A stretch of 64,000 nucleotides of DNA from assembly GCF_947496725.1 (NCBI RefSeq), contig NZ_CANMDS010000004.1, positions 124,001 to 188,000 of the forward strand, in the 5' to 3' direction. A program made the translations under genes and the position numbers. Shown here one piece after another: positions 32 to 62,521 of this stretch. The DNA is from an uncultured Dokdonia sp. (GTDB lineage: Bacteria; Bacteroidota; Bacteroidia; Flavobacteriales; Flavobacteriaceae). The notes under the pieces were generated by a model. It ran no database searches. It was not told where the DNA came from and saw only the letters and a program-made list of their open reading frames with translations. How positions within the stretch are numbered: position 1 is the first letter of the stretch; the number at the start of each line of letters is the position of its first letter.

Positions 32-1723
32 TTAAAAGCGTACAGCGAGAATTAGGTGCAGTTTTGTGTTTGAGAAGTCGAACGAAGAATTGTTAAATTT
101 TCCATTTGCAATATTTATTTTAAGGACCCCTGCCTTGGTTTGTATTCCTGCTCCCGCACCTACACTAAGCAAGTAGTTGTTGTTATTGTCTAAGGCGTTT
201 TCAATATAGCCTCCATCCAGTACTGTGTTGATGTATAGGCTGTTGCCTACTTGTATGCGGTACTCTGTATTGACTGCAATGGCAAGATTTGCAAAGAGAC
301 TGTTTTCTTCAAACCCGCGTATCGATGTAATTCCGCCAAGTCTAAAAAGTTCATTTGTAAGGTAGGTTTTAGAAAATAAATTGTTAAAAATCCCAGAAAC
401 ATAGATTGAGTTTTTAGCATCAAAATTGAAAATCTTTTTAATATTTAATAAAATTTTCGTCTGAGGTGTTTTTGTCATATTCGCAATTCTTGATCCGTGG
501 TCTATGACTATTGTCGATTGCGTCGAAATTGGGAAAAATATACTCTTTTGGCGTTTTAGGTAGGTGTGTTCTAGTTGAAGGGAGGACGTTTTGTAGTTGT
601 TTAGGTTGTTTTGGTTCGTTATCGAGTTGAGTAAGTTGTCAGAAGTTGTAGAGTTGTATCCTGCTGCAATTTTGTGTTGAGTGCTTGGTTTATAAAATAC
701 CTGTAAGTTGGTTTGCGTAGTTGAGAATGTGCTGTCTTTTCTAAAGATGGATAAGGAGGCTTCTATGCCTACTGGTGTTTTAAAAAGATAAGGAAGTGCG
801 GTTCTGATTTTGAGTTGTGATTGATCCTCACCATCAGATTTGTAATTAAGTGATATCTCCTCGCCGTAGTTAAAGTTGTTTAAGAGTTGTAGATTGAGAT
901 AGCCATCTAGTCTAAGTGTGTTGTTGTTATTTGAGGCAAAACCTAAAAATCCGTCAAACTGGTTTTGGTTTGTCTTTTCTATGTAATAAAATATTGTGGT
1001 GCTGTCTTTTTTGAATAAAGCTTCTGGTGTTCTTGTTGTGTTGAGGAATCGTAAAGTGCTTATTTCATTGTTTACGGTTTCAACTCGCTCTTGGTTGTAA
1101 GGTTTGAGGAGTAGTTTTTTGCTTAGGCTTTGTAGATATGTTTTTGGGTATTTCTCATATCCTTTATATATAACGCTTGTTATGGCTCTTTCTTTTTCTG
1201 AAATTAATGTTAGTTCTCCGGTGAGCTGGTCGTTTGCTTTCTTAATGTTGGTTATTTGAAAAGTAGCAAATGGATTTCCGTTGTTTGATGCGATTGTCGT
1301 GAGCTGTTTGAGTAGCGCTTTCGCGAAAGCGGTTTCAATCTTTATTGAGTTGCTGGCTATTGTGTAGGATGTCTCCTTTATATATGTCTCTAGTTTTGTG
1401 TTATTGTCTTGAGGAATTGTTAAGAGAATGTGTTTGTATTTTTTGCCTAGGCTGATATATGCCGTCAGGTTGTTATTGTTGAATGTTGTTTTGGTTTTTA
1501 AATCAATGTACCCTTGGTTAGTGAGTTTTTTTTCTATCTGTTGTATTTCTAGGTAGGCTCTTGATGTTTCGTTAAAGGTTTTTAGGTGTTCAATAGATTT
1601 TAGAGTGAGTTTGTCTTGAGGGTTGTGGCTGGTGATGTTTAAAGTTATTTGCGATTTGTCTTTTTGGGCATTTGTGCAAATGCTGAAGATTAATGATAAT
1701 ATAAGGAGTAGATATGTCTTCAA
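32..1723 (-). CDS. Omp85/BamA-like outer-membrane protein (short form)
   Basis: The 563-residue protein starts with a cleavable signal peptide (residues 1-19, ending TNAQ) and ends in Phe (AVRF), as outer-membrane beta-barrels do. Residues 20-200 look like one or two POTRA-type domains. The rest is strand-rich with aromatic and polar alternation, and an IRGFEE motif near residue 466 matches the conserved (V/I)RGF of the Omp85 superfamily barrel. At 563 residues it is shorter than BamA (about 800) and closer to TamA-like or surface-antigen Omp85 proteins. A palindromic repeat copy (1316-1331) encodes AFAKA near residue 132. It is divergent from rpsL. The family is clear; the substrate is unknown. 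Confidence 0.8.
   Translation of the reverse strand: MKTYLLLILSLIFSICTNAQKDKSQITLNITSHNPQDKLTLKSIEHLKTFNETSRAYLEIQQIEKKLTNQGYIDLKTKTTFNNNNLTAYISLGKKYKHILLTIPQDNNTKLETYIKETSYTIASNSIKIETAFAKALLKQLTTIASNNGNPFATFQITNIKKANDQLTGELTLISEKERAITSVIYKGYEKYPKTYLQSLSKKLLLKPYNQERVETVNNEISTLRFLNTTRTPEALFKKDSTTIFYYIEKTNQNQFDGFLGFASNNNNTLRLDGYLNLQLLNNFNYGEEISLNYKSDGEDQSQLKIRTALPYLFKTPVGIEASLSIFRKDSTFSTTQTNLQVFYKPSTQHKIAAGYNSTTSDNLLNSITNQNNLNNYKTSSLQLEHTYLKRQKSIFFPISTQSTIVIDHGSRIANMTKTPQTKILLNIKKIFNFDAKNSIYVSGIFNNLFSKTYLTNELFRLGGITSIRGFEENSLFANLAIAVNTEYRIQVGNSLYINTVLDGGYIENALDNNNNYLLSVGAGAGIQTKAGVLKINIANGKFNNSSFDFSNTKLHLILAVRF
1316..1331. repeat. Palindromic repeat CGCTTTCGCGAAAGCG, intragenic copy
   Basis: This is a perfect 16-bp palindrome inside the Omp85-like gene. 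On the minus strand it reads as the residues AFAKA between the presumed POTRA region and the barrel. It is one of the 16 perfect-core copies in the window. Confidence 0.95.
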
Positions 1724-1826
1724 AGAAGCAATTTTTGTGGTGTGTTTTGTAACGTTGTTTTGTGGTGCTAAAGTATGTTAGTTTTTTGGCATTCAGAACT
1801 TTTTTGAAAAATTAGCAAGCTGCTAT

Positions 1827-1856
1827 TTGATGGCTTAGAAAAATTTCATACTTTTG
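1827..1856 (+). promoter_or_regulatory. Promoter of the ribosomal cluster (rpsL)
   Basis: TTG at 1827-1829, exactly 19 bp, then TACTTTTG at 1849-1856. This is a full match to the Bacteroidota housekeeping sigma consensus TTG-N19-TAnnTTTG. It lies 54 bp before the rpsL ATG and is the best promoter in the window, as expected for a strongly expressed operon. Confidence 0.8.
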
Positions 1857-1910
1857 CCAACCCTTAAAATGGGTATATTAAGTAAATTAACAATTAGGTA
1901 GAAAGAAATT

Positions 1911-2285
1911 ATGCCAACAATTTCACAATTAGTACGTAAAGGAAGAACCAAGATTACCAAGAAGAGTAAATCGGCGGCCCTTGAATCGTGCCCACAACGC
2001 CGCGGCGTATGTACTCGTGTTTACACGACTACACCTAAGAAACCAAACTCGGCTATGCGTAAAGTTGCGCGTGTTCGTTTAACAAATGGTAAAGAGGTGA
2101 ATGCATACATCGGAGGAGAAGGTCACAATTTACAAGAGCACTCGATAGTATTGGTAAGAGGTGGAAGGGTAAAAGATTTGCCAGGAGTTAGATATCATAT
2201 TGTACGTGGAGCCTTAGACACCGCAGGTGTTGCAGGAAGAACGCAATCGAGATCTAAATATGGTGCAAAACGCCCTAAGAAGTAA
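1911..2285 (+). CDS. rpsL: 30S ribosomal protein S12
   Basis: S12 sits at the decoding centre and helps monitor codon-anticodon pairing. The 124-residue sequence has the universal [10 protein letters not shown] segment and the [13 protein letters not shown] loop. The lysines equivalent to E. coli K43 and K88 are both present, so the allele looks streptomycin-sensitive (inference). It is the first gene of the cluster, 25 bp ahead of rpsG. Confidence 0.99.
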
Positions 2286-2310
2286 ATCAACAACACTTTA
2301 AGAAGAAGTA

Positions 2311-2787
2311 ATGAGAAAAAAACAGGCCAAGAAGAGACCTATTCTTCCAGATCCAAAATTTAACGATCAGTTAGTAACTCGTTTCGTTAATATGATGATG
2401 TGGAGTGGTAAGAAGTCTACAGCTTTTAAAGTATTTTATGATGCAATTGACATCGTAGAAGAAAAGAACACAAATGAAGAAAAAACAGCTCTAGAGCTGT
2501 GGAAAGATGCTTTATCTAACGTAATGCCTCACGTAGAAGTGCGTAGTCGTCGTGTAGGAGGAGCAACTTACCAGATACCAAACCAAATTCGTCCAGATCG
2601 TAAGATCTCTACTGCGATGAAGTGGTTAATTAGCTTTTCTCGTAAGAGAAATGAGAAGTCTATGGCTGCAAAGCTAGCTGCAGAGATTATGGCTGCTGCA
2701 AAAGAAGAAGGTGCTGCGGTTAAAAAGCGTGTTGATACACACAAAATGGCTGAAGCAAACAAAGCATTCTCACACTTTAGATTCTAA
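2311..2787 (+). CDS. rpsG: 30S ribosomal protein S7
   Basis: S7 nucleates assembly of the 30S head by binding the 3' major domain of 16S rRNA. The 158-residue protein begins MRKKQAKKR and carries the conserved [15 protein letters not shown] segment used in rRNA contact. It is followed after 3 bp by fusA, giving the usual str order rpsL-rpsG-fusA. Confidence 0.99.
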
Positions 2788-2790
2788 GAA

Positions 2791-4917: not shown

Positions 4918-4928
4918 TTACTAAGGAA

Positions 4929-5234
4929 ATGAGTCAAAAAATTAGAATAAAACTAAAATCTTACGATCACAACTTAGTAGATAAGAGTGCTGAGAAAATC
5001 GTAAAGACTGTGAAGACGACAGGTGCTGTAGTAACTGGACCTATTCCGCTTCCAACACATAAAAAAATCTTTACTGTATTACGTTCTCCACACGTAAACA
5101 AGAAATCTCGTGAGCAGTTTGAGCTTAGCTCTTACAAGCGTTTACTTGATATCTATTCTTCTTCATCAAAGACTATTGATGCTTTAATGAAGTTAGAGTT
5201 ACCATCTGGAGTAGAGGTAGAGATAAAAGTGTGA
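4929..5234 (+). CDS. rpsJ: 30S ribosomal protein S10
   Basis: S10 is a 30S head protein, also known elsewhere as the NusE antitermination factor. The 101-residue sequence has the conserved GPIPLPT and [13 protein letters not shown] segments. It is attached to fusA in the upstream str unit. A palindromic repeat and a terminator-like hairpin separate it from rplC, so it may not be the transcriptional head of the S10 unit here. Confidence 0.99.
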
Positions 5235-5244
5235 TAGGTGTTTA

Positions 5245-5260
5245 CGCTTTCGCGAAAGCG
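5245..5260. repeat. Palindromic repeat CGCTTTCGCGAAAGCG after rpsJ
   Basis: A perfect copy starting 11 bp after the rpsJ stop codon. The symmetry extends to 24 bp (5241-5264) through flanking TTTA/TAAA, the longest symmetrical copy in the window. No T-tract follows on either side, so it is not a classical terminator. Confidence 0.97.
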
Positions 5261-5323
5261 TAAATAATCACCGCACTAACTTGTCCTGAGCCGCGCGCGA
5301 GGGAAAAACGGAAAACACACATT

Positions 5324-5354
5324 CAAGGTCGAACGTGTTCGGCCTTGTTTTTTG
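5324..5354 (+). terminator. Terminator or attenuator hairpin between rpsJ and rplC
   Basis: A 10-bp stem without bulges (5324-5333 with 5338-5347, including two G-U pairs) closes a CGTG loop and is followed by a run of T. It lies 32 bp before the rplC start. As ribosomal genes continue directly downstream, this is either a real end of the str unit with a new promoter for rplC, or a regulated attenuator. Confidence 0.75.
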
Positions 5355-5385
5355 AATTAAATTTTAATAATTAATATTTATAAAT

Positions 5386-6626: not shown

Positions 6627-6632
6627 GACACG

Positions 6633-6923
6633 ATGAGTATTTTAATAAAACCTGTTATTACAGAAAAAGCGACAAAAGATAGTGAGGAAATGAATCGCTA
6701 TACTTTTGAAGTTAGTATGAGAACAAATAAGGTTGAAATTAAGAAAGCGGTAGAAGCTGCTTATGGTGTTTCAGTTGAAAAAGTTCGCACAATGAATGTC
6801 CGCCCGGATCGCAAGTCTCGTTATACGAAGTCTGGTGTTCTTTCTGGTAAAACAAATGCTATTAAGAAAGCAATTGTACAGCTGGCGGAAGGTGATACAA
6901 TAGATTTTTATAACAACATTTAA
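6633..6923 (+). CDS. rplW: 50S ribosomal protein L23
   Basis: L23 sits at the tunnel exit and is the docking point for trigger factor and SRP. The 96-residue sequence begins with the typical IKPVITEKATKDSE and has the GVSVEKVRTMNVRPDRK segment. It follows rplD by 6 bp and precedes rplB by 9 bp. Confidence 0.98.
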   Translation: MSILIKPVITEKATKDSEEMNRYTFEVSMRTNKVEIKKAVEAAYGVSVEKVRTMNVRPDRKSRYTKSGVLSGKTNAIKKAIVQLAEGDTIDFYNNI

Positions 6924-8051: not shown

Positions 8052-8462
8052 ATGGGAGTTCGTAAAAAAGAAGCGGCAAATCGTCGCAAAGAGGCTAACA
8101 AGTCTATCGCTTTCGCGAAATTGAATAACTGCCCTACCTCTCCACGTAAAATGCGTCTTGTAGCAGATATGGTACGAGGAACGCAAGTGGAAAGAGCACT
8201 TCAGTTATTGAAATTTAGTAATAAAGAAGCATCACGTAAAGTTGAGAAACTAGTTCTTTCTGCAGTTGCAAACTGGGAAGCAAAGAATGAAGACGCAAGT
8301 ATCGAAGATGCAAATCTTTTTATTAAAGAGATCAAAGTTGATTCTGGAACAATGTTAAAAAGACTACGTCCAGCACCACAAGGTCGCGCGCACCGAATAA
8401 GAAAACGTTCTAACCACGTAACAGTGGTTCTTGGAGCAAAAGATAACACACAAAGCAATTAA
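8052..8462 (+). CDS. rplV: 50S ribosomal protein L22
   Basis: L22 lines the exit tunnel through its beta-hairpin. The 136-residue protein has the core [14 protein letters not shown] and the [17 protein letters not shown] loop region (its local form is [17 protein letters not shown]). A partial palindromic repeat (8108-8120) encodes AFAKL in its N-terminal extension, outside the conserved core. Confidence 0.98.
8108..8120. repeat. Partial palindromic repeat inside rplV
   Basis: CGCTTTCGCGAAA matches 13 of the 16 bases of the repeat and then diverges. It encodes AFAK in the variable N-terminal stretch of L22. Confidence 0.6.
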
Positions 8463-11656: not shown

Positions 11657-11670
11657 GCTTTCGCGAAAGC
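11657..11670. repeat. Palindromic repeat between rpsN and rpsH
   Basis: A perfect 14-bp core GCTTTCGCGAAAGC, flanked by T on the left and G on the right. It lies 36 bp after the rpsN stop, inside the ribosomal cluster, where a transcription end would be unexpected. Confidence 0.95.
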
Positions 11671-18449: not shown

Positions 18450-18465
18450 CGCTTTCGCGAAAGCG
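18450..18465. repeat. Palindromic repeat between rpoA and rplQ
   Basis: A perfect 16-bp copy CGCTTTCGCGAAAGCG, 24 bp after the rpoA stop and 17 bp before the rplQ ATG. It is inside an operon that is normally co-transcribed, so a simple terminator role is unlikely. Confidence 0.96.
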
Positions 18466-21056: not shown

Positions 21057-21094
21057 ATATAACCGCTTACGCGAAAACGTTATCGCGACAATAG

Positions 21095-24506: not shown

Positions 24507-24519
24507 ACTTTCGTGAAAG
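24507..24519. repeat. Degenerate palindromic repeat over a GTG start codon
   Basis: ACTTTCGTGAAAG differs from the repeat core by C to T in the central CGCG and by loss of the outer G. The GTG created by this change is the start codon of the gene at 24513. Confidence 0.5.
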
Positions 24520-25010: not shown

Positions 25011-25025
25011 GCTTTCGCGAAAGCG
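25011..25025. repeat. Palindromic repeat abutting the stop of the GyrI-like gene
   Basis: GCTTTCGCGAAAGCG begins on the first base after the TAA (25008-25010). No T-tract follows. Confidence 0.96.
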
Positions 25026-29585: not shown

Positions 29586-29601
29586 CGCTTTCGCGAAAGC
29601 G
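29586..29601. repeat. Palindromic repeat in a divergent promoter region
   Basis: A perfect 16-bp copy, 63 bp upstream of the DUF885 start and 141 bp upstream of the Ntn hydrolase start. Here it lies before two genes rather than after one. Confidence 0.96.
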
Positions 29602-30639: not shown

Positions 30640-30654
30640 GCTTTCGCGAAAGCG
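30640..30654. repeat. Palindromic repeat beside a terminator
   Basis: GCTTTCGCGAAAGCG lies directly right of a full terminator and 14 bp before the end of the convergent aminotransferase gene. As a terminator is already present, the repeat probably has another role. Confidence 0.95.
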
Positions 30655-33129: not shown

Positions 33130-33143
33130 CGCTTTCGCGAAAA
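33130..33143. repeat. Partial palindromic repeat between desaturase and rsmG
   Basis: CGCTTTCGCGAAAA keeps the left arm and centre and loses the right arm to an A-run. Confidence 0.6.
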
Positions 33144-33262
33144 AAAATAATCTTCTTTTAATAGCTTGGTAAAAGTAATGCATAATATAGGCTACATCTA
33201 TGAACCTGCGTTAAAATAATAGCGGGTATTATGGTACTTTTACACCGTTAATATACTAAATA

Positions 33263-36532: not shown

Positions 36533-36548
36533 CGCTTTCGCGAAAGCG
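36533..36548. repeat. Palindromic repeat after the beta-barrel gene
   Basis: A perfect 16-bp copy, 47 bp after the stop at 36485 and well before the dnaG promoter. The symmetry extends through TTA/GGA only partly. Confidence 0.96.
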
Positions 36549-36718: not shown

Positions 36719-38701
36719 TTGATATCAAAAGAAACCATAGACAAAGTTTTTGAAACCGCCCGTGTAGAGGAGGTGATAGGTGATTTTGTAAATCTTAAAA
36801 AATCTGGATCTAATTTTAAAGGCCTCTCTCCATTTTCTGATGAGCGTACGCCTAGTTTTATGGTGAGTCCTGTAAAGCAAATTTGGAAAGATTTTTCTAC
36901 TGGTAAAGGAGGCTCGGCGGTTTCATTTTTGATGGAACACGAGCATTTTAGCTATCCAGAAGCGATAAAATACCTAGCCAAAAAGTATAACATTGAGGTA
37001 GAAGAAACAGAGCGCACAGACGAGCAAAAGGAAGCTGCAAATGAGCGTGAGAGTATGTATCTCGTGAGTGAGTATGCTCGTGATTACTTCCATAAAACGA
37101 TGCTTAACTCTGAGCAGGGTAAGGCTATAGGTCTTTCATATTTTAAAGAACGCGGATTTACTGCAGCGACTATTGAAAAATTTCAGCTAGGGTATAATCC
37201 AGATCAATGGGATGCTTTTACGAGTGAGGCAATACGTCAAGGTTACAAACTAGATTACTTAGAAAAAACCGGACTCTCTATAGTTAAGGAGGAGAAGCAA
37301 TTTGACCGTTTTAAAGGGCGTGTGATGTTTCCTATACACTCTATGAGTGGTCGTGTACTAGGTTTTGGAGGTAGAATATTAGATAGTAGTAAGAAAGCAG
37401 CAAAGTATCTCAACTCGCCAGAGAGTGACATTTACCATAAGAGTAAAGTGCTGTATGGTATTTACTATGCAAAGCAAGCTATTGCAAAGGAGGATAACTG
37501 TTACCTAGTAGAAGGGTATACAGATGTGATACAGATGTTTCAGTCTGGTATTGAGAATGTAGTTTCATCTTCTGGAACGGCACTTACTCCAGAGCAAATA
37601 CGATTAATAAATAGACTTACTAAAAATATAACGGTTCTTTTTGATGGTGATGCTGCTGGACAGCGCGCTGCACTACGAGGGATTGATTTAATTCTCGAGC
37701 AGGGAATGAACGTGAGGGTTTGCTCTTTTCCTGAGGGGGAAGATCCAGACTCATTTTCGCGAAAGCATAGTAAAGAAGAAATCGTTGCTTTTTTTGATGA
37801 AAATGCAAAAGACTTTATACAGTACAAAGCAAACCTGCTTGTAGAAGAAGCGGCTGGTGATCCTGTAAAAAAAGCAGATACTGTGCGTGATATGGTAGAG
37901 AGTATTTCTAAAATACCTGACGCCATAAAGCAAGAAATTTATGTGCAAGAGTGTGCGCGCATAATGGAGGTCTCTGAGACTGTGTTGTATAATACACTTG
38001 CTCAAATACTCAAGAAAGATAAAAAGGAGGCTGTAAAACAAAATAGAGGTAATCAATCTCAATCACCACCACCAGAATATATGTCTGTGGTGCCAGACGA
38101 GATGCCTAATGCTGTCGAGAAAGTTAATGTGTTATATGAGCTTGAGCGCAAGCTTATAGAGTCACTACTCCTATACGGGCAGGTGGAAGAAGATTTTGAA
38201 GATCTGGTTCTTAAAGAAAATGAAGATGGCTCACTAGGCCTAGAGCCTGTGACTCATAAAATTAGAGTGTTTGAAAAAATCTATTTAGACCTTCAAGATG
38301 ATGAGGTGGAGTTTACAAACGACCTTTTTAAGGTTTTGTATGTGAGAATAGTGGAGCAAATGAATCTAAATGATAATTTTCAAATTCAAAACTTCATCAA
38401 TGAGCTCGCTCCAGAAGAAGCAAGCGAGATTTCTAACATCATTCTTAATGATGAGAAGTATGAGCTACACCGCTGGGATACAAGAGAGGTGTATGTGCGT
38501 AAAAAAGATACATCAATAGCTCAGTTTGTATCAGAAACTGTGCTTAGTTTACGTAAATACCTTATCACCCAGAAGATAAAAGAGCTTATGGATAAGACAC
38601 AAGGAAGCTCTAATAATCAGGAGATTATTAAAGACATTCTTGATTACCAATCGCTCAATACCTTGCTAGGTAATAAACTGGGCCGAGTGCTGTCGGTCTA
38701 G
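36719..38701 (+). CDS. dnaG: DNA primase without the canonical zinc ligands
   Basis: DnaG makes RNA primers for replication. The 660-residue protein starts at a TTG (MISKETIDKV), has the N-terminal CHC2-like domain, then the TOPRIM catalytic domain (LVEGYTDVI, LFDGDAAGQRAA) and a helicase-binding C-terminal part. In the N-terminal domain the expected Cys, His, Cys, Cys ligands are Ser37, Ser40, Asp58 and Thr61 (GLSPFSDERTPSF and WKDFSTGKGG), so no zinc site is visible although the fold residues remain. A partial palindromic repeat lies at 37755. The stop overlaps the convergent regulator gene. Confidence 0.96.
   Translation: MISKETIDKVFETARVEEVIGDFVNLKKSGSNFKGLSPFSDERTPSFMVSPVKQIWKDFSTGKGGSAVSFLMEHEHFSYPEAIKYLAKKYNIEVEETERTDEQKEAANERESMYLVSEYARDYFHKTMLNSEQGKAIGLSYFKERGFTAATIEKFQLGYNPDQWDAFTSEAIRQGYKLDYLEKTGLSIVKEEKQFDRFKGRVMFPIHSMSGRVLGFGGRILDSSKKAAKYLNSPESDIYHKSKVLYGIYYAKQAIAKEDNCYLVEGYTDVIQMFQSGIENVVSSSGTALTPEQIRLINRLTKNITVLFDGDAAGQRAALRGIDLILEQGMNVRVCSFPEGEDPDSFSRKHSKEEIVAFFDENAKDFIQYKANLLVEEAAGDPVKKADTVRDMVESISKIPDAIKQEIYVQECARIMEVSETVLYNTLAQILKKDKKEAVKQNRGNQSQSPPPEYMSVVPDEMPNAVEKVNVLYELERKLIESLLLYGQVEEDFEDLVLKENEDGSLGLEPVTHKIRVFEKIYLDLQDDEVEFTNDLFKVLYVRIVEQMNLNDNFQIQNFINELAPEEASEISNIILNDEKYELHRWDTREVYVRKKDTSIAQFVSETVLSLRKYLITQKIKELMDKTQGSSNNQEIIKDILDYQSLNTLLGNKLGRVLSV
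37755..37766. repeat. Partial palindromic repeat inside dnaG
   Basis: TTTCGCGAAAGC keeps the centre and right arm. It is read in the frame giving FSRK, the third frame relative to AFAKA and RFRES copies. Confidence 0.55.
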
Positions 38702-41655: not shown

Positions 41656-42030
41656 ATGATGGGTTTGCTATTTGTGTATAATGCAAACTCTGGCACCTTA
41701 AATGGTCTTTTAGATACGGCTCATAAGCTGGTGAGTCCAGAAACTTACCAGTGTGAGCTTTGTGATCTTACCCACGGAGCTTTTACAGAAAAAAAAGAGT
41801 GGTTACGCTTTCGCGAAAGCGTAAAAACCCCAATGCAGTTTTTGCATAAAGATGAGTTCTTAAAGCGTTACAAGTCTAAGTGGTTACCGCAATATGATTT
41901 TCCTGTGGTGCTAGCTGCTACAGATAGCGGTCTGGAGGTAGCTATCTCAAAAGAGCGACTTACTGAGTTGAAAACGCCCGAAGCTTTAATAGAAGAAGTG
42001 CAAGAAGTGTTGCGTCTTTTTAATTTTTAA
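41656..42030 (+). CDS. Conserved protein of unknown function downstream of gldC
   Basis: The 124-residue protein has no family I can name. It begins GLLFVYNANSGTLNG, has a CELCDLTHGAF motif near residue 35 (CxxC type, possible metal or thiol site), and a palindromic repeat encodes RFRES at residues 51-55. It is tightly linked to gldC (2 bp), and overlaps engB tail to tail by 11 bp. The start could be either of two adjacent ATGs. No role can be assigned. Confidence 0.8.
   Translation: MMGLLFVYNANSGTLNGLLDTAHKLVSPETYQCELCDLTHGAFTEKKEWLRFRESVKTPMQFLHKDEFLKRYKSKWLPQYDFPVVLAATDSGLEVAISKERLTELKTPEALIEEVQEVLRLFNF
41806..41821. repeat. Palindromic repeat inside the gene after gldC
   Basis: A perfect 16-bp copy read as RFRES within WLRFRESVK. 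Symmetry continues for two further bases each side (TA/TA: 41804-41823 in TTACG...CGTAA). Confidence 0.96.
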
Positions 42031-43647: not shown

Positions 43648-43663
43648 CGCTTTCGCGAAAGCG
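43648..43663. repeat. Palindromic repeat between the hydrolase gene and mraZ
   Basis: A perfect 16-bp copy within the 315-bp divergent region, 80 bp from the first MraZ-type box and 125 bp from the hydrolase start. Confidence 0.96.
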
Positions 43664-45521: not shown

Positions 45522-47513
45522 GTGGCTACATCAGAAAAAAACATATTAAACCGCCTTTATTTCGTCGCTGGATGTATGTTTCTTCTAGCGCTTATTATTG
45601 CATATAAACTTGTAGCGATACAGGTTTTTCAAGGTGCGGCATATCGAGAGCTTGCTGTTACTAGTACCGAGAAGATGGTTACCATACCAGCCACGCGTGG
45701 TAATCTTTATGCAGAGGATGGTAGTCTACTTGCTACGTCTCAAATTAAGTATGATATACGCTGGGATGCTATAGCACCGTCTAAGGATAACTTTAATGAA
45801 AATATAGTAGAACTTTCTAAGGGTCTTTCTGAAGTGCTCGGTAAGCCTCAATCATATTATGAGAATAGACTGCGCAAAGCACGTAGTACAAAAAATCGCT
45901 ACTTATTTATAGCTCGTAAACTAGGTTATGCAGATTATGTAAAAATCAAGTCGTTGCCATTGTTTAATAAAGGCCAGTTTAGAGGAGGGATCATTGTAGA
46001 AGAGCATACAGAGCGTGAGCATCCATTAGAGAAAATGGCAGAGCGCACAGTAGGATACGAGCGTCAAGATGATAGTGGGTATTATACTCGCGTAGGTCTA
46101 GAAGGAGCATATGGTTATTATCTAAGAGGTAAAGAAGGACGCCGTCTTAAGCAAAAGATTGCAAAAGGCGAGTGGAAACCTTTAGGGATAGGTAATGTAG
46201 TGGAGCCTCGCGATGGGTATGATGTAATATCTACCATAGATGTAAATATTCAAGATGTTGCACACAACGCCTTGCTTACGAGTCTCGAAAAATACCAGGC
46301 AGATCACGGTTGTGTGGTTGTTATGGAAACTAAGACTGGCGAGATTAAAGCAATCTCAAATTTAGGTCGTACTAAAGAAGGAAAATATTACGAGCGTCTC
46401 AATTATGCGGTAGGAGAGGCACACGAGCCTGGGTCTACTTTTAAGTTGATGTCTATGGTGGCTGCACTAGAAGACAAGGTGATTGACTCAAGTACAGTGT
46501 TTGATACAGAAAATGGACGAGTAAAATTTTATGACCGTACGGCTATAGATTCTAAGCGTGGTGGTTATGGTAAAATCACTGCGGCAAAAGCGTTTGAGTT
46601 GAGTAGTAATACCGCTTTCGCGAAAATGATAAACGATAACTATGCCTCAGATCCAGAAAAGTTTGTAAAACGACTTTTTAATATGGGTCTCAACGATCAG
46701 TTAGGTCTAGAGATAAAAGGAGAAGGAAAACCTAATTTTCCGTACCCAGGAGATAAAAACTGGTATGGAACTACCTTGCCTTGGATGGCCTTTGGTTATG
46801 GTGTAGAGCTTACTCCATTACAAACACTCACATTTTATAACGCCATTGCAAATGATGGTGAGATGGTAAAACCTCGTTTTATAAAAGAGGTAAAGGAGTG
46901 GGATCAAACTATAGAGACTTTTGATAAAGAGGTGATAAACTCACGCATCGCATCTCAAGAAACAATTAATGTTGTTAAGGAGATGATGAAGAAAACAGTA
47001 GAGCGTGGTACAGCAAGAAATATTTATAGCAAGGAATTCTCTATGGCTGGAAAGACGGGTACTTGTCAAACAGAATACTGGATAGAAGCGGGCAGGTACA
47101 TATCCTCTTTTGCAGGGTACTTTCCTGCAGATGAGCCTAAGTACTCGTGCATTGTGGTAGTTAATAAGCCTAAAAAATCTATAGGGTTTTATGGTAACGT
47201 CGTTGCAGCTCCAGTTTTTAAAGAAATTGCTCAAAAAATCTACTCAGACACTCCAGTGATAGATGAGATAGCATTACCGGCAGATAATGCTTCTAGCATT
47301 ACAAATGATTTTCAGAAGTATTATGCAAACGTAAATAAGAGCCATAAGACTATCCCAAATGTAAAAGGTATGCCAGGTATGGATGCTGTGGCATTGCTAG
47401 AAAACTTAGGGTTGAAAGTAAACTTTCGCGGAAGCGGAAAAGTAAAGAGCCAGTCTATTAAGGCTGGTGATAAAATAGAAAAGAATAAAACCATTACGCT
47501 ACAATTATCGTGA
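45522..47513 (+). CDS. ftsI: Septal transpeptidase FtsI (class B PBP) with PASTA domain
   Basis: The 663-residue protein starts at a GTG, has one N-terminal membrane helix (about 12-32), the PBP dimerisation domain (50-230) and a transpeptidase domain with active-site Ser in EPGSTFKL, the SSN motif (SSNTAF) and KTGT. A single PASTA domain fills the last 60 residues (IPNVKGMPGMDAVALLENLG). It cross-links septal peptidoglycan. A partial palindromic repeat overlaps the SSNTAFAK stretch (46613-46625). Its stop overlaps the murE start. Confidence 0.96.
   Translation: MATSEKNILNRLYFVAGCMFLLALIIAYKLVAIQVFQGAAYRELAVTSTEKMVTIPATRGNLYAEDGSLLATSQIKYDIRWDAIAPSKDNFNENIVELSKGLSEVLGKPQSYYENRLRKARSTKNRYLFIARKLGYADYVKIKSLPLFNKGQFRGGIIVEEHTEREHPLEKMAERTVGYERQDDSGYYTRVGLEGAYGYYLRGKEGRRLKQKIAKGEWKPLGIGNVVEPRDGYDVISTIDVNIQDVAHNALLTSLEKYQADHGCVVVMETKTGEIKAISNLGRTKEGKYYERLNYAVGEAHEPGSTFKLMSMVAALEDKVIDSSTVFDTENGRVKFYDRTAIDSKRGGYGKITAAKAFELSSNTAFAKMINDNYASDPEKFVKRLFNMGLNDQLGLEIKGEGKPNFPYPGDKNWYGTTLPWMAFGYGVELTPLQTLTFYNAIANDGEMVKPRFIKEVKEWDQTIETFDKEVINSRIASQETINVVKEMMKKTVERGTARNIYSKEFSMAGKTGTCQTEYWIEAGRYISSFAGYFPADEPKYSCIVVVNKPKKSIGFYGNVVAAPVFKEIAQKIYSDTPVIDEIALPADNASSITNDFQKYYANVNKSHKTIPNVKGMPGMDAVALLENLGLKVNFRGSGKVKSQSIKAGDKIEKNKTITLQLS
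46613..46625. repeat. Partial palindromic repeat inside ftsI
   Basis: CGCTTTCGCGAAA keeps the left arm and centre. It encodes AFAK immediately after the conserved SSN motif. Confidence 0.55.
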
Positions 47514-50214: not shown

Positions 50215-50230
50215 CGCTTTCGCGAAAGCG
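50215..50230. repeat. Palindromic repeat between mraY and murD
   Basis: A perfect 16-bp copy 3 bp after the mraY stop and 41 bp before the murD start, inside the dcw cluster. Confidence 0.97.
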
Positions 50231-51691: not shown

Positions 51692-51706
51692 CGCTTTCGC
51701 GAAAGC
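51692..51706. repeat. Palindromic repeat before ftsW
   Basis: CGCTTTCGCGAAAGC, perfect 14-bp core, 24 bp before the ftsW GTG. Confidence 0.95.
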
Positions 51707-54054: not shown

Positions 54055-55407
54055 ATGAAAGCACTTAAGGACATACAGAACTTTTACTTTATAGGCATAG
54101 GCGGTATAGGGATGAGTGCGCTTGCTTTTTATTTTCAAAGTGAAGGTAAAAATGTAGCAGGTTATGATAAGACGCCTTCAGATGTGACAAGAAAGTTGCA
54201 AGAGGCTGGCGTTGCTGTTCATTTTCAAGATAAGGGAGATGCGATAGATGAGACCTTTGCAGATAAGGAAAACACGCTCGTTATATATACACCTGCAGTG
54301 CCAAATACAATGGGAGAGTTAGTACGCTTTCGCGAAAGCGGGCATATCCTCAAAAAACGCGCAGAAGTGTTAGGTCTTATTGCAAACCAGTCGTTCTCGC
54401 TTGCCGTTGCTGGCACCCACGGAAAAACAACTACCTCAAGTATATTAGGTCACTTACTCGCTGCTACGGGAGCACCAGTAACGGCTTTTGTAGGAGGAAT
54501 AACAAATAATTACAACGGTAACCTTATTCAGAACGGAAGTGATATTACTGTTGTAGAAGCAGATGAGTTTGATAGGTCATTCTTACAGCTCACTCCAGAT
54601 ATATTGTGCATCACCTCTATGGATGCAGATCATCTCGATATTTATGAAGACGAGGCAGATCTTGTGGCGACTTTTCAAGAGTTTGGATCTCTTGTAGCTC
54701 CAGAAAAGAGATTTGTGAAAAATGGTTTGCCACTTGCGGGTAATACCGTGGGTATAGAAGATGATGCAACATACTTAGCACAAAATGTGCGCATTGTGGA
54801 TGGTGCTTATCATTTTGATTTTAAGTATCCAGAAGGTGTGCTTAAAGATTTGAAATTTACATTACCAGGGAGGCACAATCTATTTAATGCTACCACGGCA
54901 CTTAGTATGGCGGTGGCTTATGGTACTCCAGTAGCAAAGTTGCCAGATGCGTTAGCTAGTTATGCGGGTGTAAATCGCAGGTTTACCTATCGCTATCAGT
55001 CTCAGGAGAAGGTGCTCATAGATGATTATGCACATCACCCTACAGAGATTGCGGCGGTGTATCAAAGTATAAAAGAGATGTATCCGGGCGAGGAGGTGCT
55101 GGCTATTTTTCAGCCACATTTGTTTAGTAGAACAAAGGATTTTATGGCAGATTTTGCTACAGAATTATCTCGTTTTGATGAGGTGGCACTGCTAGATATT
55201 TATCCAGCTAGAGAGTTGCCCATAGATGGTGTTACAAGTCAAGCATTATTAGATAAAATGACGCTTTCAAATAAAGAAATTGTCACAAAAAATCGCTTGC
55301 CTGAGATTGTGACAGCTTCAAATAAGAAAATTATAGTAATGATGGGTGCCGGAGATATAGGTGTAGAAATATTAAAAGTTACAAAAATATTGCAGAGTGA
55401 AGGTTAA
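54055..55407 (+). CDS. murC: UDP-MurNAc:L-alanine ligase MurC
   Basis: MurC adds L-Ala, the first peptide residue. The 450-residue ligase has the N-terminal GIGGIGMSALA, GTHGKTTTSS and the DDYAHHPTEI and FQPHLFSRT motifs. A perfect palindromic repeat (54325-54340) encodes RFRES at residues 91-95, between the first Rossmann domain and the ATP-binding domain. It overlaps ftsQ by 11 bp. Confidence 0.98.
   Translation: MKALKDIQNFYFIGIGGIGMSALAFYFQSEGKNVAGYDKTPSDVTRKLQEAGVAVHFQDKGDAIDETFADKENTLVIYTPAVPNTMGELVRFRESGHILKKRAEVLGLIANQSFSLAVAGTHGKTTTSSILGHLLAATGAPVTAFVGGITNNYNGNLIQNGSDITVVEADEFDRSFLQLTPDILCITSMDADHLDIYEDEADLVATFQEFGSLVAPEKRFVKNGLPLAGNTVGIEDDATYLAQNVRIVDGAYHFDFKYPEGVLKDLKFTLPGRHNLFNATTALSMAVAYGTPVAKLPDALASYAGVNRRFTYRYQSQEKVLIDDYAHHPTEIAAVYQSIKEMYPGEEVLAIFQPHLFSRTKDFMADFATELSRFDEVALLDIYPARELPIDGVTSQALLDKMTLSNKEIVTKNRLPEIVTASNKKIIVMMGAGDIGVEILKVTKILQSEG
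54325..54340. repeat. Palindromic repeat inside murC
   Basis: A perfect 16-bp copy read as RFRES (VRFRESGH), the same frame as the copy in the gene after gldC although the proteins are unrelated. Confidence 0.97.
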
Positions 55408-56113: not shown

Positions 56114-56131
56114 TAGAAGGTAAGATGAGTA

Positions 56132-56147
56132 CGCTTTCGCGAAAGCG
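56132..56147. repeat. Palindromic repeat between ftsQ and ftsA
   Basis: A perfect copy 18 bp after the ftsQ stop and 27 bp before ftsA; symmetry extends to 20 bp (56130-56149). Confidence 0.97.
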
Positions 56148-56174
56148 TAAACATAAACTTTCAAAATTAGAAGT

Positions 56175-57524: not shown

Positions 57525-57622
57525 TGCAATAGCACTGCAGTAATTAAAGAATTAGAATAAGAATCAAATCGGCGTATGGGCGTCGATCTAGTAGAATACA
57601 ACGGGGCAAAAAAATAAATCAT

Positions 57623-59644
57623 ATGAGTACGACACAATTTAATAACATCACATTTGATCTACCTAAAAACCAAAGCAATGTCATAAAAGTGATAGGTGTA
57701 GGTGGAGGAGGTAGCAATGCTATTAACCATATGTTCCAGCAGGGCATAAAAGGTGTAGATTTTGTAATCTGTAACACAGATGCACAGGCACTTGAGAATA
57801 GTACAGTGCCTATTAAGATACAACTAGGTGTAGGTCTTACAGAAGGTCTTGGTGCAGGAGCAAATCCAGAAGTGGGTGAGCAAGCTGCCATAGAGAGTGA
57901 GATGGATATTAAACAAATGTTAGGTACTAACACAAAGATGATCTTTATTACTGCCGGGATGGGTGGTGGTACAGGTACTGGTGCCGCTCCTGTAATTGCA
58001 AAGATGGCTCGTGAGCTTGATATCCTAGTCGTAGGGATTGTCACGATTCCTTTCCAGTTTGAAGGAAAAATGCGTAACGAACAAGCCCAAAAAGGAGTAG
58101 ATAGACTACGTGCTCAGGTAGACTCACTCATTGTAATAAATAATAATAAGCTACGTGAGGTTTATGGAAACCTAGGCTTCAAAGCTGGTTTTAGTAAAGC
58201 AGATGAGGTTCTTGCCACAGCCTCAAGAGGTATAGCAGAGGTAATAACACACCACTACACACAAAACATTGACTTGCGTGATGCAAAGACAGTGTTGAGT
58301 AAATCTGGTACAGCTATAATGGGTAGCGCTACTGCTAGTGGTACAAGTCGTGCAAACGAGGCAATATCAAAAGCACTAGACTCGCCATTACTTAATGATA
58401 ACAAGATTACAGGTGCAAAGAATGTGCTACTCCTTATTGTTTCTGGAGGTGATGAGATTACTATAGATGAGATAGGTGAGATAAATGATCACATACAAGC
58501 AGAGGCTGGTCACAGTGCAAACATCATTATGGGTGTAGGTGAAGATGACTCTCTAGGAGATGCGATTTCTGTAACAATAATAGCAACGGGTTTTAATGCA
58601 GAGCAGCAAAACGATATTGTAAACGTTGAGACAAAAAAAATCATACACACGCTAGAGGAGGAGCAAAAAGCACAACAAGACCTTATGCCAGAGGCTACAG
58701 TAGAGATACCACCTGCAGCACCGGTGGAGCCTCAAAAACCAGTAGCACCTACTAAGATTGTACACACTTTAGACCTAGATGAACTAGAAGATACTACAAA
58801 CGCTTTCGCGAAAGCGCCTGTAAAAGAAGTTCCACAAGAAAAAGCTCCAGAAGCACCAAAGGCTCAGGCAAGCCCAGAAGCTCCAGCAAGCCAGCAATAT
58901 AAAATGGACATTGTGCCTACAACAGATATTATAAAAAATATCAATGTAGTGTATGATGAAATTCTAGCCGAAAATGATGCAGATTTTGAAATCATAGACA
59001 CAACTGTACGTCAAGAAAGTCCAGTAGTCGAAAATAAAGAGCCGGAAGGAAATGGAATGCTCTTTTTTGATATGCCGCTCAATGCAGAAACTGCAGTAGA
59101 AGAAGAGAAAGAATCTCCAATACTTTTTGATCTAGATGAAAGCACAGCATCAATAGAAGTAAACGAGCCTATAGAAATTATTCCTGTAACAGAGCATACT
59201 AATGAGGGAGAGACTCGCTATAGCCTTGAAGACTATATGGAACTTGAAGAAACACTCTCAAGTGCATCTATAGTAAAGGAAGAAGCAGATCAGGAAGAGG
59301 AAGAAACTATAGTTTTTGAAACCAAAACTGTAGTTCCAGAAGAAAAGGAAGAAGAAGTTCCAGAGGCAGAAGTAGACCCTATGAATAGCCCTATTTCAAA
59401 ATTACTTATAGATAGAGCATCAGAGCGTAAACGTAAGATGAAGGAGTTTAACTATAAGTTTAGAAATAATCAGTCACGCATAGAGGAGATAGAAAAGCAG
59501 CCTGCTTACAAGCGTATGGGAATAGATCTAGAAGAGACTCCTAAAAAAGATGGTAATCTATCTAGAACATCACTCTCTACAGATGATAATGACGAAGTAC
59601 AACTACGTAAGAACAACTCATTTCTACACGATAATGTAGATTAG
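57623..59644 (+). CDS. ftsZ: Cell division protein FtsZ with long C-terminal extension
   Basis: FtsZ is the tubulin-like GTPase forming the division ring. Residues 1-330 form the core, with GVGGGGSNAINHM, the GGGTGTGAAPVIA signature and FNAEQQ region. The total of 673 residues exceeds typical FtsZ (about 350-450) because of a roughly 290-residue acidic, Pro/Glu-rich linker and a conserved-looking PAYKRMGIDLEE segment near residue 625, followed by about 40 further residues. A perfect palindromic repeat encodes AFAKA at about 393 in the linker. Confidence 0.98.
   Translation: MSTTQFNNITFDLPKNQSNVIKVIGVGGGGSNAINHMFQQGIKGVDFVICNTDAQALENSTVPIKIQLGVGLTEGLGAGANPEVGEQAAIESEMDIKQMLGTNTKMIFITAGMGGGTGTGAAPVIAKMARELDILVVGIVTIPFQFEGKMRNEQAQKGVDRLRAQVDSLIVINNNKLREVYGNLGFKAGFSKADEVLATASRGIAEVITHHYTQNIDLRDAKTVLSKSGTAIMGSATASGTSRANEAISKALDSPLLNDNKITGAKNVLLLIVSGGDEITIDEIGEINDHIQAEAGHSANIIMGVGEDDSLGDAISVTIIATGFNAEQQNDIVNVETKKIIHTLEEEQKAQQDLMPEATVEIPPAAPVEPQKPVAPTKIVHTLDLDELEDTTNAFAKAPVKEVPQEKAPEAPKAQASPEAPASQQYKMDIVPTTDIIKNINVVYDEILAENDADFEIIDTTVRQESPVVENKEPEGNGMLFFDMPLNAETAVEEEKESPILFDLDESTASIEVNEPIEIIPVTEHTNEGETRYSLEDYMELEETLSSASIVKEEADQEEEETIVFETKTVVPEEKEEEVPEAEVDPMNSPISKLLIDRASERKRKMKEFNYKFRNNQSRIEEIEKQPAYKRMGIDLEETPKKDGNLSRTSLSTDDNDEVQLRKNNSFLHDNVD
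58801..58816. repeat. Palindromic repeat inside the ftsZ linker
   Basis: A perfect 16-bp copy read as AFAKA (NAFAKAPV) in the disordered linker of FtsZ. Confidence 0.97.
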
Positions 59645-59665
59645 AACAATTATTATTAGTGCTTT

Positions 59666-59707
59666 GTAGCCCAATAATCTTACCCAAGATTGTTGGGCTA
59701 CTTTTTT
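59666..59707 (+). terminator. Terminator after ftsZ
   Basis: A long stem (GTAGCCCAA with TTGGGCTAC, plus inner AATCTT with AAGATT), ACCC loop and six T residues. It closes the dcw cluster. Confidence 0.93.
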
Positions 59708-59780
59708 ATGCAGTGTTATCTATAAGAAACGTTCATACGGCTCAAACTCCGTATCTTTGATACTCTAAAATTATAAAACT

Positions 59781-60230
59781 ATGAGTTTATCTAAAGATGT
59801 GATGACGGCTATGAAAGAGGCAATGAAGGCCAAAGATCAAAATGCCCTTACATCACTACGCGCTATAAAATCTGCTATATTACTTGCACAAACAGAGAGT
59901 GGTGTAAAAGAAGAAATAACAGAAGAGCAAGAGCTAAAATTACTCCAGAAGCTAGTAAAACAACGCAAAGACAGCGCTGCTATTTTTAATGAGCAAGGTC
60001 GTGCAGATCTAGCAGATCCGGAGATTGCTCAAGCAGAGGTGATTGCTCAGTTTTTACCAGAACAACTAGGAGAAGATGATATAGCAAAGGTTGTAGATGA
60101 GGTTATCGCTGCAACAGGTGCTCAAGGAATGAAAGATATGGGTAAAGTAATGGGGCAGGTCAATGGTAAGCTAGCTGGTAAAGCAGATGGTAAGACTATA
60201 AGTACGATCGTAAAATCAAGACTGAGCTAG
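59781..60230 (+). CDS. GatB/YqeY domain protein
   Basis: The 149-residue protein matches the YqeY family, a stand-alone domain like the C-terminal tail of the amidotransferase subunit GatB that contacts tRNA. It has LTSLRAIKSAILLAQTESG-type helices, QRKDSAAIFNEQGRADLA and the final KDMGKVMGQVNGKLAGKADGK. Its own function is unclear. It is a single-gene unit after the ftsZ terminator. Confidence 0.93.
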   Translation: MSLSKDVMTAMKEAMKAKDQNALTSLRAIKSAILLAQTESGVKEEITEEQELKLLQKLVKQRKDSAAIFNEQGRADLADPEIAQAEVIAQFLPEQLGEDDIAKVVDEVIAATGAQGMKDMGKVMGQVNGKLAGKADGKTISTIVKSRLS

Positions 60231-60256
60231 TATATATTCATATATAGTACAACTTT

Positions 60257-60285
60257 GAGAGACACAGTAATGTGTCTCTTTTTTT
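60257..60285 (+). terminator. Terminator after the YqeY-like gene
   Basis: An 8-bp stem (GAGACACA with TGTGTCTC), GTAA loop and seven T residues. Confidence 0.92.
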
Positions 60286-60440
60286 ATGAATAAAAGAAAG
60301 CAATAGCCGTAAAGTTATTTTTCTGCATATAATTAACTTAAAATGGCTTTCATTTCTTAATGATTAATAGTGGCGGTTAATTGGTTTTGCTATTTAAGAG
60401 CCTAGTTTTCAGTAGTTAGAGTTAGTGTCTTTCATAATTT
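60286..60440. other. AT-rich intergenic stretch, nothing recognised
   Basis: No coding region, repeat copy or RNA gene is seen between the YqeY terminator and the promoter element at 60445. It may hold regulatory sites for the OmpA-family gene. Confidence 0.4.
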
Positions 60441-60444
60441 TTAG

Positions 60445-60452
60445 TATGTTTG
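60445..60452 (+). promoter_or_regulatory. Probable -7 element for the OmpA-family gene
   Basis: TATGTTTG fits TAnnTTTG exactly, 87 bp before the ATG. TTA rather than TTG lies about 20 bp upstream. Confidence 0.5.
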
Positions 60453-60539
60453 CGCTCTCCCCTTTTTTGTAGTAAAATTCTATCCTCAACTTATCTTTTT
60501 TTTGAATTAGATAATAAAATACTTAATAGTAAAAGTTAA

Positions 60540-62492
60540 ATGAAGAAGTTTTTACGTGTTATCACGTTATTAGTATGTGTCTTATGTTATGTCACGGGAG
60601 CGGCTCAAGATGCAAAACTTGCTAGAGCAAATAAAAAATTTAATCAACTTGCATATATAGATGCAATAGAAATCTACAAAGACCTCGTAGCAGAGGGTTT
60701 TAAGTCTTATGATGTTTTCAAAAAAATAGCAGAAGCTTATTACTATAACGGTAAGTACTCACAAGCTCAAGAATGGTATAAAAAGATTACAGAAAATTAT
60801 GCAGACTCGGTAAGTGCAGAGCATTATTTTAGGTATGCACAAACTTTACGTGCAACAAAGGAGTATGACGAGTCTGATGATATGATGCAGATTTTTACCT
60901 CCTTGAGCGGTAATGATTTTAGAGCAAGGCTATTTAAAGAGAATCCAGACTACGTAGCAGTAGAGGGTTATAAGGAGAGTCTTTATGAAATTAATATGTT
61001 GCGCACGCTTAACTCGAGATATTCAGATTTTGGACCAGCATATTATAAAGGACAAATTGTTTTTGCCTCTGCGAGAGATACGGGTATTGTAAGCAGGCGT
61101 ATACATAAATGGACTAATCAACCTTTTTTAGATTTGTATAAATCTACAATTAAAGAAGGTGGTACAATGTCACCACCTTCACGATTTAGTAATAAACTCA
61201 ATACAAAATACCACGAGAGCTCTCCTACATTTTCCAAGGATGGTAAAACGATTTATTTTACCCGTAACAATTATACCAAAGACAAGTATAAAGCCTCAAA
61301 AGATGGGATTAATAAGCTAAAGATTTATAAATCTACTTATCTCCCTTCTTCAAAAAACTGGACCATTGCAGAAGAAGTTCCCTTTAATAGTGATGATTTT
61401 TCAAATGCGCATCCGGCATTAAGTAGTGATGGTAAGTATCTCTACTTCTCTTCAGATAGGCCTGGAGGTGTGGGACGTTCAGACATCTGGAGGGTCGCTA
61501 TAAATGAAGATGGGACCTATGGAGAACCGGAAAATATGGGCAAACCTATAAATACCGAAGGTAGAGAGGCGTTTCCTTTTATGAGTGATACAGGTAATTT
61601 ATATTATGCTTCAGACGGTTACCCAGGCCTAGGTGGTCTAGATATTTATGTTACAAACCCCTCTTCAGAAGAGATTGCTGTTGTTGGTGTGGGGGCGCCT
61701 ATTAATAGCTCTAGCGATGATTTTGGTTTTATAGTTAATGACAGTGAGAAGACAGGTTTTTTCTCATCTAGCCGTAAACGAGGTATGGGTAGTGATGACA
61801 TCTATCATTTTAAACAGACAGAAAAACCACCTCGTAAATGTGATATCCCTATAAGTGGTTATGTAACAGATAAAAACACAAAAACACCTATTACAGATGC
61901 AAAAGTGCAACTTCTAGATCCTGATAATAAGGTTTTACAAGAAGTACAGGTCTCGCCTAAGGGTAAGTATAAATTTGATCTTGTTTGCTCTCAGAATTAT
62001 ATCATACGCGCTTCCTCAAAAACGTATTACTCAAACGAAGTTTTTGTGATGACACCAGCAACAGAGCAAAGCTTAGAAAGAGATATAGAGTTAGAGCTTA
62101 GACTTACAGAAGTAGGTGTAGGAGACGACCTTGCAAAGCTTCTCAATTTGAACCCTATATATTTTGACTACAACAAGTCAGATATAAGACCAGATGCAGC
62201 CCTTGAGCTCACTAAAGTCATCTCTGCTATGAAGCAAGTGCCGGCAATGGTTATTAACGTGCGCTCACATACAGATAGTAGAGGTAAAGATTCTTATAAC
62301 TTGTCATTATCAGATAGACGAGCAAAGTCTACAGTGGCATACATAATCTCAAGAGGTATAAATGCAGAGCGTATAAGTGGTAATGGTTACGGAGAGACAC
62401 AACTTGTAAATGGCTGTGGTAATAATAGTGATTGTACCGAGGAGCAGCACCAGTTAAACAGACGCTCAGAGTTTATTGTTGTTAATCAGTAA
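60540..62492 (+). CDS. OmpA-family protein with TPR and WD40-like (PD40) repeats
   Basis: The 650-residue envelope protein has a signal peptide (1-22, ending GAAQ), TPR-like helices (25-130), PD40 propeller-type repeats (about 200-420, such as SPTFSKDGKTIYFTR and HPALSSDGKYLYFSSDRPGG), a carboxypeptidase-regulatory-like beta domain (435-510) and a C-terminal OmpA domain (530-650) with peptidoglycan-binding NVRSHTDSRG and the LSDRRAKS motif. This layout is common in Bacteroidota and often linked to SprE/PorE-like anchoring in type IX secretion, but no porP/sprF gene is adjacent. Role: likely attaches a surface complex to peptidoglycan. Confidence 0.88.
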   Translation: MKKFLRVITLLVCVLCYVTGAAQDAKLARANKKFNQLAYIDAIEIYKDLVAEGFKSYDVFKKIAEAYYYNGKYSQAQEWYKKITENYADSVSAEHYFRYAQTLRATKEYDESDDMMQIFTSLSGNDFRARLFKENPDYVAVEGYKESLYEINMLRTLNSRYSDFGPAYYKGQIVFASARDTGIVSRRIHKWTNQPFLDLYKSTIKEGGTMSPPSRFSNKLNTKYHESSPTFSKDGKTIYFTRNNYTKDKYKASKDGINKLKIYKSTYLPSSKNWTIAEEVPFNSDDFSNAHPALSSDGKYLYFSSDRPGGVGRSDIWRVAINEDGTYGEPENMGKPINTEGREAFPFMSDTGNLYYASDGYPGLGGLDIYVTNPSSEEIAVVGVGAPINSSSDDFGFIVNDSEKTGFFSSSRKRGMGSDDIYHFKQTEKPPRKCDIPISGYVTDKNTKTPITDAKVQLLDPDNKVLQEVQVSPKGKYKFDLVCSQNYIIRASSKTYYSNEVFVMTPATEQSLERDIELELRLTEVGVGDDLAKLLNLNPIYFDYNKSDIRPDAALELTKVISAMKQVPAMVINVRSHTDSRGKDSYNLSLSDRRAKSTVAYIISRGINAERISGNGYGETQLVNGCGNNSDCTEEQHQLNRRSEFIVVNQ

Positions 62493-62505
62493 TGGAGTAA
62501 ATTTG

Positions 62506-62521
62506 CGCTTTCGCGAAAGCG
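62506..62521. repeat. Palindromic repeat between the OmpA gene and tRNA-Arg
   Basis: A perfect 16-bp copy 13 bp after the stop and 7 bp before the tRNA 5' end. Confidence 0.97.

Follow-up and report, generated by a model that had tools for sequence, protein, structure and literature searches.

DNA uptake signals, such as the uptake sequences of Neisseria and the Pasteurellaceae, share several of the traits of a lineage-specific dense word, a strong core and weak flanks. The Chi sites of Escherichia coli occur at a density of about one per 4.6 kb, and the parS sites of ParB and the Noc binding sites (NBS) are palindromes of about 16 bp with TTTC and GAAA arms. The highly iterated palindrome HIP1 of cyanobacteria (GCGATCGC) is a short perfect palindrome present at high genome frequency and linked to two orphan methylases (PMC4390886). 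The stretch analysed here, referred to as the window, comprises 64,000 nucleotides from an uncultured Dokdonia sp. (RefSeq assembly GCF_947496725.1, contig NZ_CANMDS010000004.1, forward-strand positions 124,001–188,000) and carries 16 exact copies of the 14-bp palindrome GCTTTCGCGAAAGC. This word is like HIP1 in being a perfect palindrome repeated at high genome frequency, like parS and NBS in its palindromic form and arms, like Chi in occurring once every few kilobases with a G/T-rich strand adjoining the site, and like uptake sequences in its lineage-specific density, strong core and weak flanks. Each site is tentatively read here as a landmark of the chromosome, or of self DNA, that is bound symmetrically by a putative homodimeric DNA-binding protein, the task of which would most likely be chromosome organization or maintenance.

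Abundance, conservation and spacing of the palindrome

The 14-mer occurs 905 times in the 3.29-Mb genome, or about once per 3.5–3.6 kb of chromosome. Base composition alone predicts 0.005 genome-wide copies and the reversed control word has none, an excess of the kind that marks an iterated palindrome. An earlier note on the window, made from its sequence alone, had listed the 16 exact copies and proposed that they be counted genome-wide against expectation; every start that it gave is correct, its gaps of about 1 to 6.9 kb measure 1053–6794 bp, and neither a count near expectation nor membership of a known repeat family with an established function has emerged. The longer 16-mer of its title holds for 12 of the 16 copies but not for those at 11657, 25011, 30640 and 51693. 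Six of its seven near-copies have one or two mismatches (8109, 33131, 37753, 46614, 47422 and 62861, some of them one or two bases from the positions given), whereas that at 24507 has three, and an additional near-copy at 21065 was missing from the list. With up to two mismatches allowed, the window contains 23 matches, whereas 100 shuffled versions average 0.12. A text search of open-licence papers found the 14-mer and three 12-mers in no paper; the 10-mer occurs, but under no title on this subject.

The anatomy, spacing and location of the sites were derived from 464 kb (14%) of the genome of the window (G000), which holds 130 exact, four one-mismatch and 22 two-mismatch copies. All 148 TTCGCGAA words in these 464 kb are TTTCGCGAAA, each with GC on at least one side. 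Among 636 TTTCGCGAAA words from six pooled sets, some of them orthologous, GC is present on both sides in 553, on one side in 83 and on neither side in none, the pattern that a dimer able to cope with one weakened half-site would produce. The one-sided 12-bp versions look functional and not decayed, since they are distant from two-sided sites and keep the same spacing: their median distance to a two-sided site is 2300 bp, compared with 1099 bp for random positions, and none of 5000 simulations gave a value as large (40 sites, some orthologous). In 16 comparisons of one-sided sites with the relatives G016, G005 or G003, the counterpart was also one-sided in 11, two-sided in one and without the 10-bp core in four.

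The core is strongly conserved. G000 and G016 are 94.3% identical over 235 kb; 69 of the 71 assessable sites (from 97) of the former are kept in the latter, and 69 of 70 (from 89) in the reverse direction. Only three of 1218 core bases are substituted between the two genomes, whereas flank positions 13–100 bp away change at 5.7–6.9%, so that the core is about 25 times slower to change than its flanks, with similar rates in coding and intergenic sites. In the alignments, some sites have survived replacement of the gap sequence around them, and the site in murC differs by in-frame substitutions. Taken together, these sequence comparisons argue strongly for purifying selection on the core.

Retention of the 29 sites in the region of the window declines with distance, from 15 of 16 assessable sites in G016 (92.5% DNA identity) to 12 of 16 in G005 (83%), 10 of 16 in G003 (79%), seven of 14 in G013 (76%), seven of 14 in G010 (77%), two of seven in L009 (73%) and three of eight in G017 (73%). 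The corresponding fractions of random aligned 14-mers that are identical are 0.53–0.56, 0.15–0.26, 0.10–0.17, 0.06–0.12, 0.06–0.12, 0.01–0.02 and 0.02–0.07 (0.9–26% overall for the further relatives). The two measures differ, as a site counts as kept if a copy lies anywhere in the matching segment and a random 14-mer is scored at its aligned place; the site at 18451, for example, is scored as lost in G003 by the segment count, yet is present in the alignment.

The sites are evenly spaced. The coefficient of variation (CV) of the spacing is 0.47 in a 320-kb stretch and 0.56 in a 124-kb stretch, compared with 1.07 and 1.15 in simulations with the same split between coding and intergenic positions, none of 2000 of which was as even. 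Comparable values are found in G016 (0.56), a pool of the other members of the genus (0.57), G433 (0.57), G027 (0.39) and G230 (0.58). Forty sampled 20-kb regions of G016 contain 2–9 sites each, with a dispersion of 0.41, and no trend relative to the origin or terminus is visible around the chromosome in these regions. With genes called by a simple codon-usage caller, 76 of the 130 exact sites are intergenic, in all gene orientations, and 54 lie in genes.

On each side, about 20–25 bp are poor in C and rich in G and T toward the core. At positions −3 to −25, read 5′ to 3′ toward the core from either side, C makes up 1–16%, mostly less than 13%, compared with about 19%; the same positions are T-rich, and G-rich from about −6, in coding and intergenic sites alike. 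This bias is also seen in the genus g11 and is weaker in G230. In the pooled sets without G230, the information content dips at −8, −11, −14, −17 and −20 in both the intergenic and coding halves. Permutation tests for a period of three gave P-values of 0.003 (G000 and G016), 0.0009 (g11), 0.10 (more distant genus members) and 0.37 (G230), and 3-bp phasing of the flanks is thus supported in two of the four sets. The left and right flanks show no covariation and no excess pairing; the lack of covariation speaks against a hairpin, and selection for one was rejected on this ground. An intrinsic terminator was likewise rejected, given the 54 of 130 sites in genes, the 20 in divergent gaps, and T-rich sequence before and A-rich sequence after the core.

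Distribution among relatives, islands and phages

The genome of the window is that of a Dokdonia-type flavobacterium. All 17 genus relatives searched carry 369–903 copies of the word, and copy number rises weakly with genome size among 13 genus members (r = 0.34). In a sample of 397 genomes of the family, counts above 100 are confined to the genus, g11 (578, 664 and 609) and g210 (408), all others having 19 or fewer; intermediate counts of 16–19 were observed in G116, G326 and G091. In a sample of 395 genomes of the phylum, matches were seen in 22, eight of which lie outside the family and carry a single copy apiece. L009, a record named Dokdonia, carries the word; its mraY matches that of the window at 80% and falls inside the genus in the mraY tree. 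The same tree places g210 as sister of the genus (support 99/89) and g11 in a group with G127 and G024, of which G024 has no copies and G127 has five, all in one 22-kb stretch homologous to a shared island. The site in murC lies at 0.20–0.21 of the gene in G000, G010, G017, G230, G281 and G027, and since a position of about 0.2 is common to all three genera, a single ancestral origin of the word with later losses is likely, although not proven. The close genera that lack the word constitute a natural loss experiment.

In a screen of the loci for repeated words (sets of at least 9 kb), a repeated 10-bp palindrome was found only in G000, G017 and G027; the word was seen in L009, but below the threshold. 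The same screen showed repeated 12-mers of their own in two other Bacteroidota loci, TCAGGATGACAA in L074 (a metagenome-assembled genome of Sphingobacteriales) and ATTTGCAATTCC in L083 (Belliella alkalica), each with four copies in 21 kb.

The stretches around the few copies in 11 genomes of other genera were examined. Seven of these (G118, G127, G141, G254, G376, G386 and G029) share blocks of 72–97% identity, whereas G389, G133, G390 and G067 have no shared block longer than 300 bp. A pair of motifs exactly 933 bp apart recurs in G118, G127, G141, G254 and G200. The shared island is presumably mobile. The island stretches are L190–L198, L202, L141, L142 and L200, by which the motif is brought into genera with few or no copies.

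A scan of viral contigs yielded 41 stretches with the 16-mer; the phage contigs with the site include L186, L169, L165 and L314–L316. Of ten encoded proteins scanned, eight match phage families, including an integrase and the terminase, portal, major head, baseplate hub and tape measure families, and L169 has one site in its portal open reading frame (ORF) and one in its terminase ORF. Two relatives identified by terminase at 74% identity hold one and three copies, while one at 34% holds none. Island sites show the flank bias clearly, phage sites less strongly. Phage contigs with the word suggest adaptation of foreign DNA to it.

A putative dimeric reader and its rivals

A dimeric DNA-binding protein is suggested by the symmetry of the word, the rule that at least one GC arm is kept, the exactness of the copies and the footprint. 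The even spacing, in combination with the presence in island and phage DNA, suggests a task for which sites are required at intervals of a few kilobases. In the landmark reading, the palindrome of about 14 bp with its biased flanks of about 20–25 bp per side would form the site of a predicted homodimer, whose function would require such a site every few kilobases of any DNA living in the cell, for the anchoring of loops or the marking of self DNA. In this view, random substitutions would create new sites, of which those without a neighbour would be retained and redundant ones lost; this turnover is proposed to produce the even spacing. It is possible, though rather uncertain, that this amounts to a bacterial self-DNA landmark system of a new kind, comprising a clade-specific protein, a 14-bp palindrome with 3-bp-phased flanks and a footprint of about 60 bp, placed every 3–6 kb or so chromosome-wide and acquired by phages and mobile DNA. 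Sharp, testable constraints on the putative protein follow from the regular spacing, the flank bias and the rule of one intact half-site, and its discovery could uncover a novel mode by which bacteria organize or recognize their own DNA.

Several observations weigh against the landmark reading. No binding protein was found among the readers tested (ParB, PF00145, PF01555, secretin and an AddB-like protein). Despite their strong skew, the flanks lack base-by-base conservation beyond about 4 bp when G000 is compared with G016, which speaks against a strict reading of each base, and a plain dimer site would not usually have flanks with strand asymmetry and 3-bp phasing. Sites lie between ribosomal-protein genes, and tight binding of a protein there could obstruct transcription. 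The spacing is less even in G281 (CV 0.68), and the exactness of the copies differs among genera: in 220 kb G230 has 28 exact copies, ten with one mismatch and 12 with two, so that imperfect copies are common there, whereas the three g11 genomes have 34/4/2, 19/3/2 and 23/2/0. A drive process, such as biased uptake or conversion, could also imitate purifying selection. The earlier suggestion of a binding site for a chromosome protein stands in so far as the palindrome, the evenness of the spacing, the conservation of positions and the apparent purifying selection all fit it, while the analogies named with it mostly fail.

Candidate readers were compared across 25 genomes, 11 of them motif-rich and 14 others. 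The analogy with ParB and Noc did not hold: a single ParB of about 300 residues is present in each of the 25 genomes, with or without the motif, no alignment column of ParB separates the two classes in 14 aligned genomes, and the sites are unclustered in the 40 regions of G016. ParB was rejected as the reader on these grounds, as was a ParB paralog; larger ParB-domain proteins of about 600 residues occur in one of the 11 motif-rich and six of the 14 other genomes. These proteins, of about 600–616 residues, accompany the ParB of about 300 residues in G010, G029, G061, G113, G141, G184 and G254. The canonical parS consensus, with up to two mismatches allowed, has no match in about 4.95 Mb of loci, the parB loci included, so that a positive control for ParB sites is lacking; the parS of these flavobacteria may be different or located elsewhere. 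The word also differs from parS and NBS in its hundreds of spread copies and in having no dedicated or altered ParB. Confinement to the terminus, as for matS, was rejected, sites being present in all 40 sampled regions.

The earlier proposal of a DNA uptake signal, in which word-bearing DNA is preferentially taken up and recombination spreads and repairs the word, is unlikely to be correct, although it accounts for much: the word is abundant in some genera only, shows the density and even spacing of an uptake sequence in genes and gaps alike, combines a strong core with weak flanks and occurs in island and phage DNA. Known sequence-specific uptake passes through an outer-membrane pore formed by a secretin, and secretin PF00263 is absent from six of the 11 motif-rich genomes (G000, G016, G005, G230, G027 and G433) and present in the other five, though another pore may serve. 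In addition, one-mismatch copies are few in G000 (four, compared with 130 exact), and the word is a long palindrome, a form not known among uptake words.

The next explanation in standing, likewise unlikely, is a Chi-like landmark at which the palindrome stops an end-processing helicase–nuclease arriving from either side and the adjacent G/T-rich strand receives RecA. The density of about one site per 3.6 kb, the composition of the flanks, poor in C and rich in G and T on the 5′ side of the core in each strand, their T-K-N phasing, and the presence of sites on phage contigs are all consistent with this role. It is attractive because the flanks are G/T-rich and RecA prefers TGG repeats (PMC3763553); the same paper reports, however, that neither TTG repeats nor Chi improve the nucleation of RecA. 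A PF12705 protein of AddB size, a putative AddB by domain and size, is present in all 25 genomes. Against this role, the motif-less genera possess the putative enzyme too, and a nearby second PF12705 protein of AddA size is found in 20 of the 25 genomes but is missing from all three of g11. None of 867 ungapped columns of the AddB-like protein separates eight motif-bearing from six motif-less genomes, a comparison of low power in which the controls gave 0 of 410 (mraY), 0 of 477 (murE) and 1 of 441 (murD) over 14 genomes. The orientation of one-sided sites relative to the direction of replication, with the replication arms inferred from GC skew, is 15 versus ten (25 of 26 sites used), which is not significant. 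The word further differs from Chi in its symmetry and in its length, its 14 bp far exceeding the five-base AddAB Chi of Bacillus subtilis (PMC4824097).

That the word is a methylation-linked iterated palindrome like HIP1, the target of an orphan methylase acting on TCGCGA or CGCG, is very improbable. It is highly iterated and palindromic, and the 464 kb hold 176 TCGCGA and 148 TTTCGCGAAA words, but PF00145 is absent from seven of the 11 motif-rich genomes and PF01555 is over the cut-off in only two of the 11, so that both were rejected as conserved readers; these two were the only methylase families searched. A methylase alone would also leave the 14-bp word and its flanks without explanation, and unlike HIP1 the word is 14 bp long, has biased flanks of about 20–25 bp and is evenly spaced. 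A word search of the HIP1 article (PMC4390886) gave no occurrence of the terms Dokdonia, Krokinobacter, Bacteroidetes and Flavobact. Finally, a mobile, hairpin-forming palindrome spread by a transposase, of the repetitive extragenic palindrome (REP) or miniature inverted-repeat transposable element (MITE) type, would fit the many copies and the intergenic enrichment (76 of 130) but was rejected as highly improbable in view of the 54 coding sites, the absence of covariation or excess pairing between flanks, the in-frame substitutions at the murC site and the positions conserved across species, REP-associated tyrosine transposases (RAYT) not having been searched for. Strong selection appears to hold one exact DNA word at even distances, and none of the tested readers accounts for it.

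Sites in the window

The first exact 14-mer of the window (1317–1330) lies inside an ORF on the reverse strand (32–1723), and a copy is present in the matching segment of all five assessable relatives. The following sites fall in a region of ribosomal-protein genes. An exact copy between rpsJ and rplC (5246–5259) is kept in G005, G013 and G010 and has one mismatch in G016 and G003; the one-sided GCTTTCGCGAAATT inside rplV (8109–8122) is identical in G016, G005 and G003; and the copy immediately upstream of rpsH (11657–11670) is kept in four of five assessable relatives. The copy between rpoA and rplQ (18451–18464) is present in five aligned relatives, its flanks being replaced in G003.

Intergenic exact copies are found at 25011–25024, kept in one of five assessable relatives (G016), at 29587–29600, at 30640–30653, at 36534–36547, kept in all three assessable relatives, and at 43649–43662. 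Interspersed with these are the intergenic one-sided GCTTTCGCGAAAAA (33131–33144) and the coding one-sided ATTTTCGCGAAAGC (37753–37766), both of which are one-sided in G016 and G005 and changed in G003, and an exact copy inside the ORF at 41656–42030 (41807–41820), for which G230 has a site at a similar relative place (0.44 versus 0.42). The one-sided GCTTTCGCGAAAAT (46614–46627), also coding, is one-sided in G016 and changed in G005 and G003.

Further along, exact copies lie 4 bp past the mraY ORF and before murD (50216–50229; kept in five of seven assessable relatives), between murD and the next ORF (51693–51706; three of seven), inside murC (54326–54339; with substitutions in G005, G003 and G013) and immediately upstream of ftsA (56133–56146; two of seven). 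The copy in ftsZ (58802–58815), kept in two of seven assessable relatives, is outside the match to the family model (residues 15–344), and G027 has a site at a similar relative place (0.56 versus 0.59). The last exact copy (62507–62520) ends 7 bp before a tRNA-Arg gene (62528–62602) and is kept in two of three assessable relatives; it is followed by the intergenic one-sided GCTTTCGCGAAAGG at 62861–62874.

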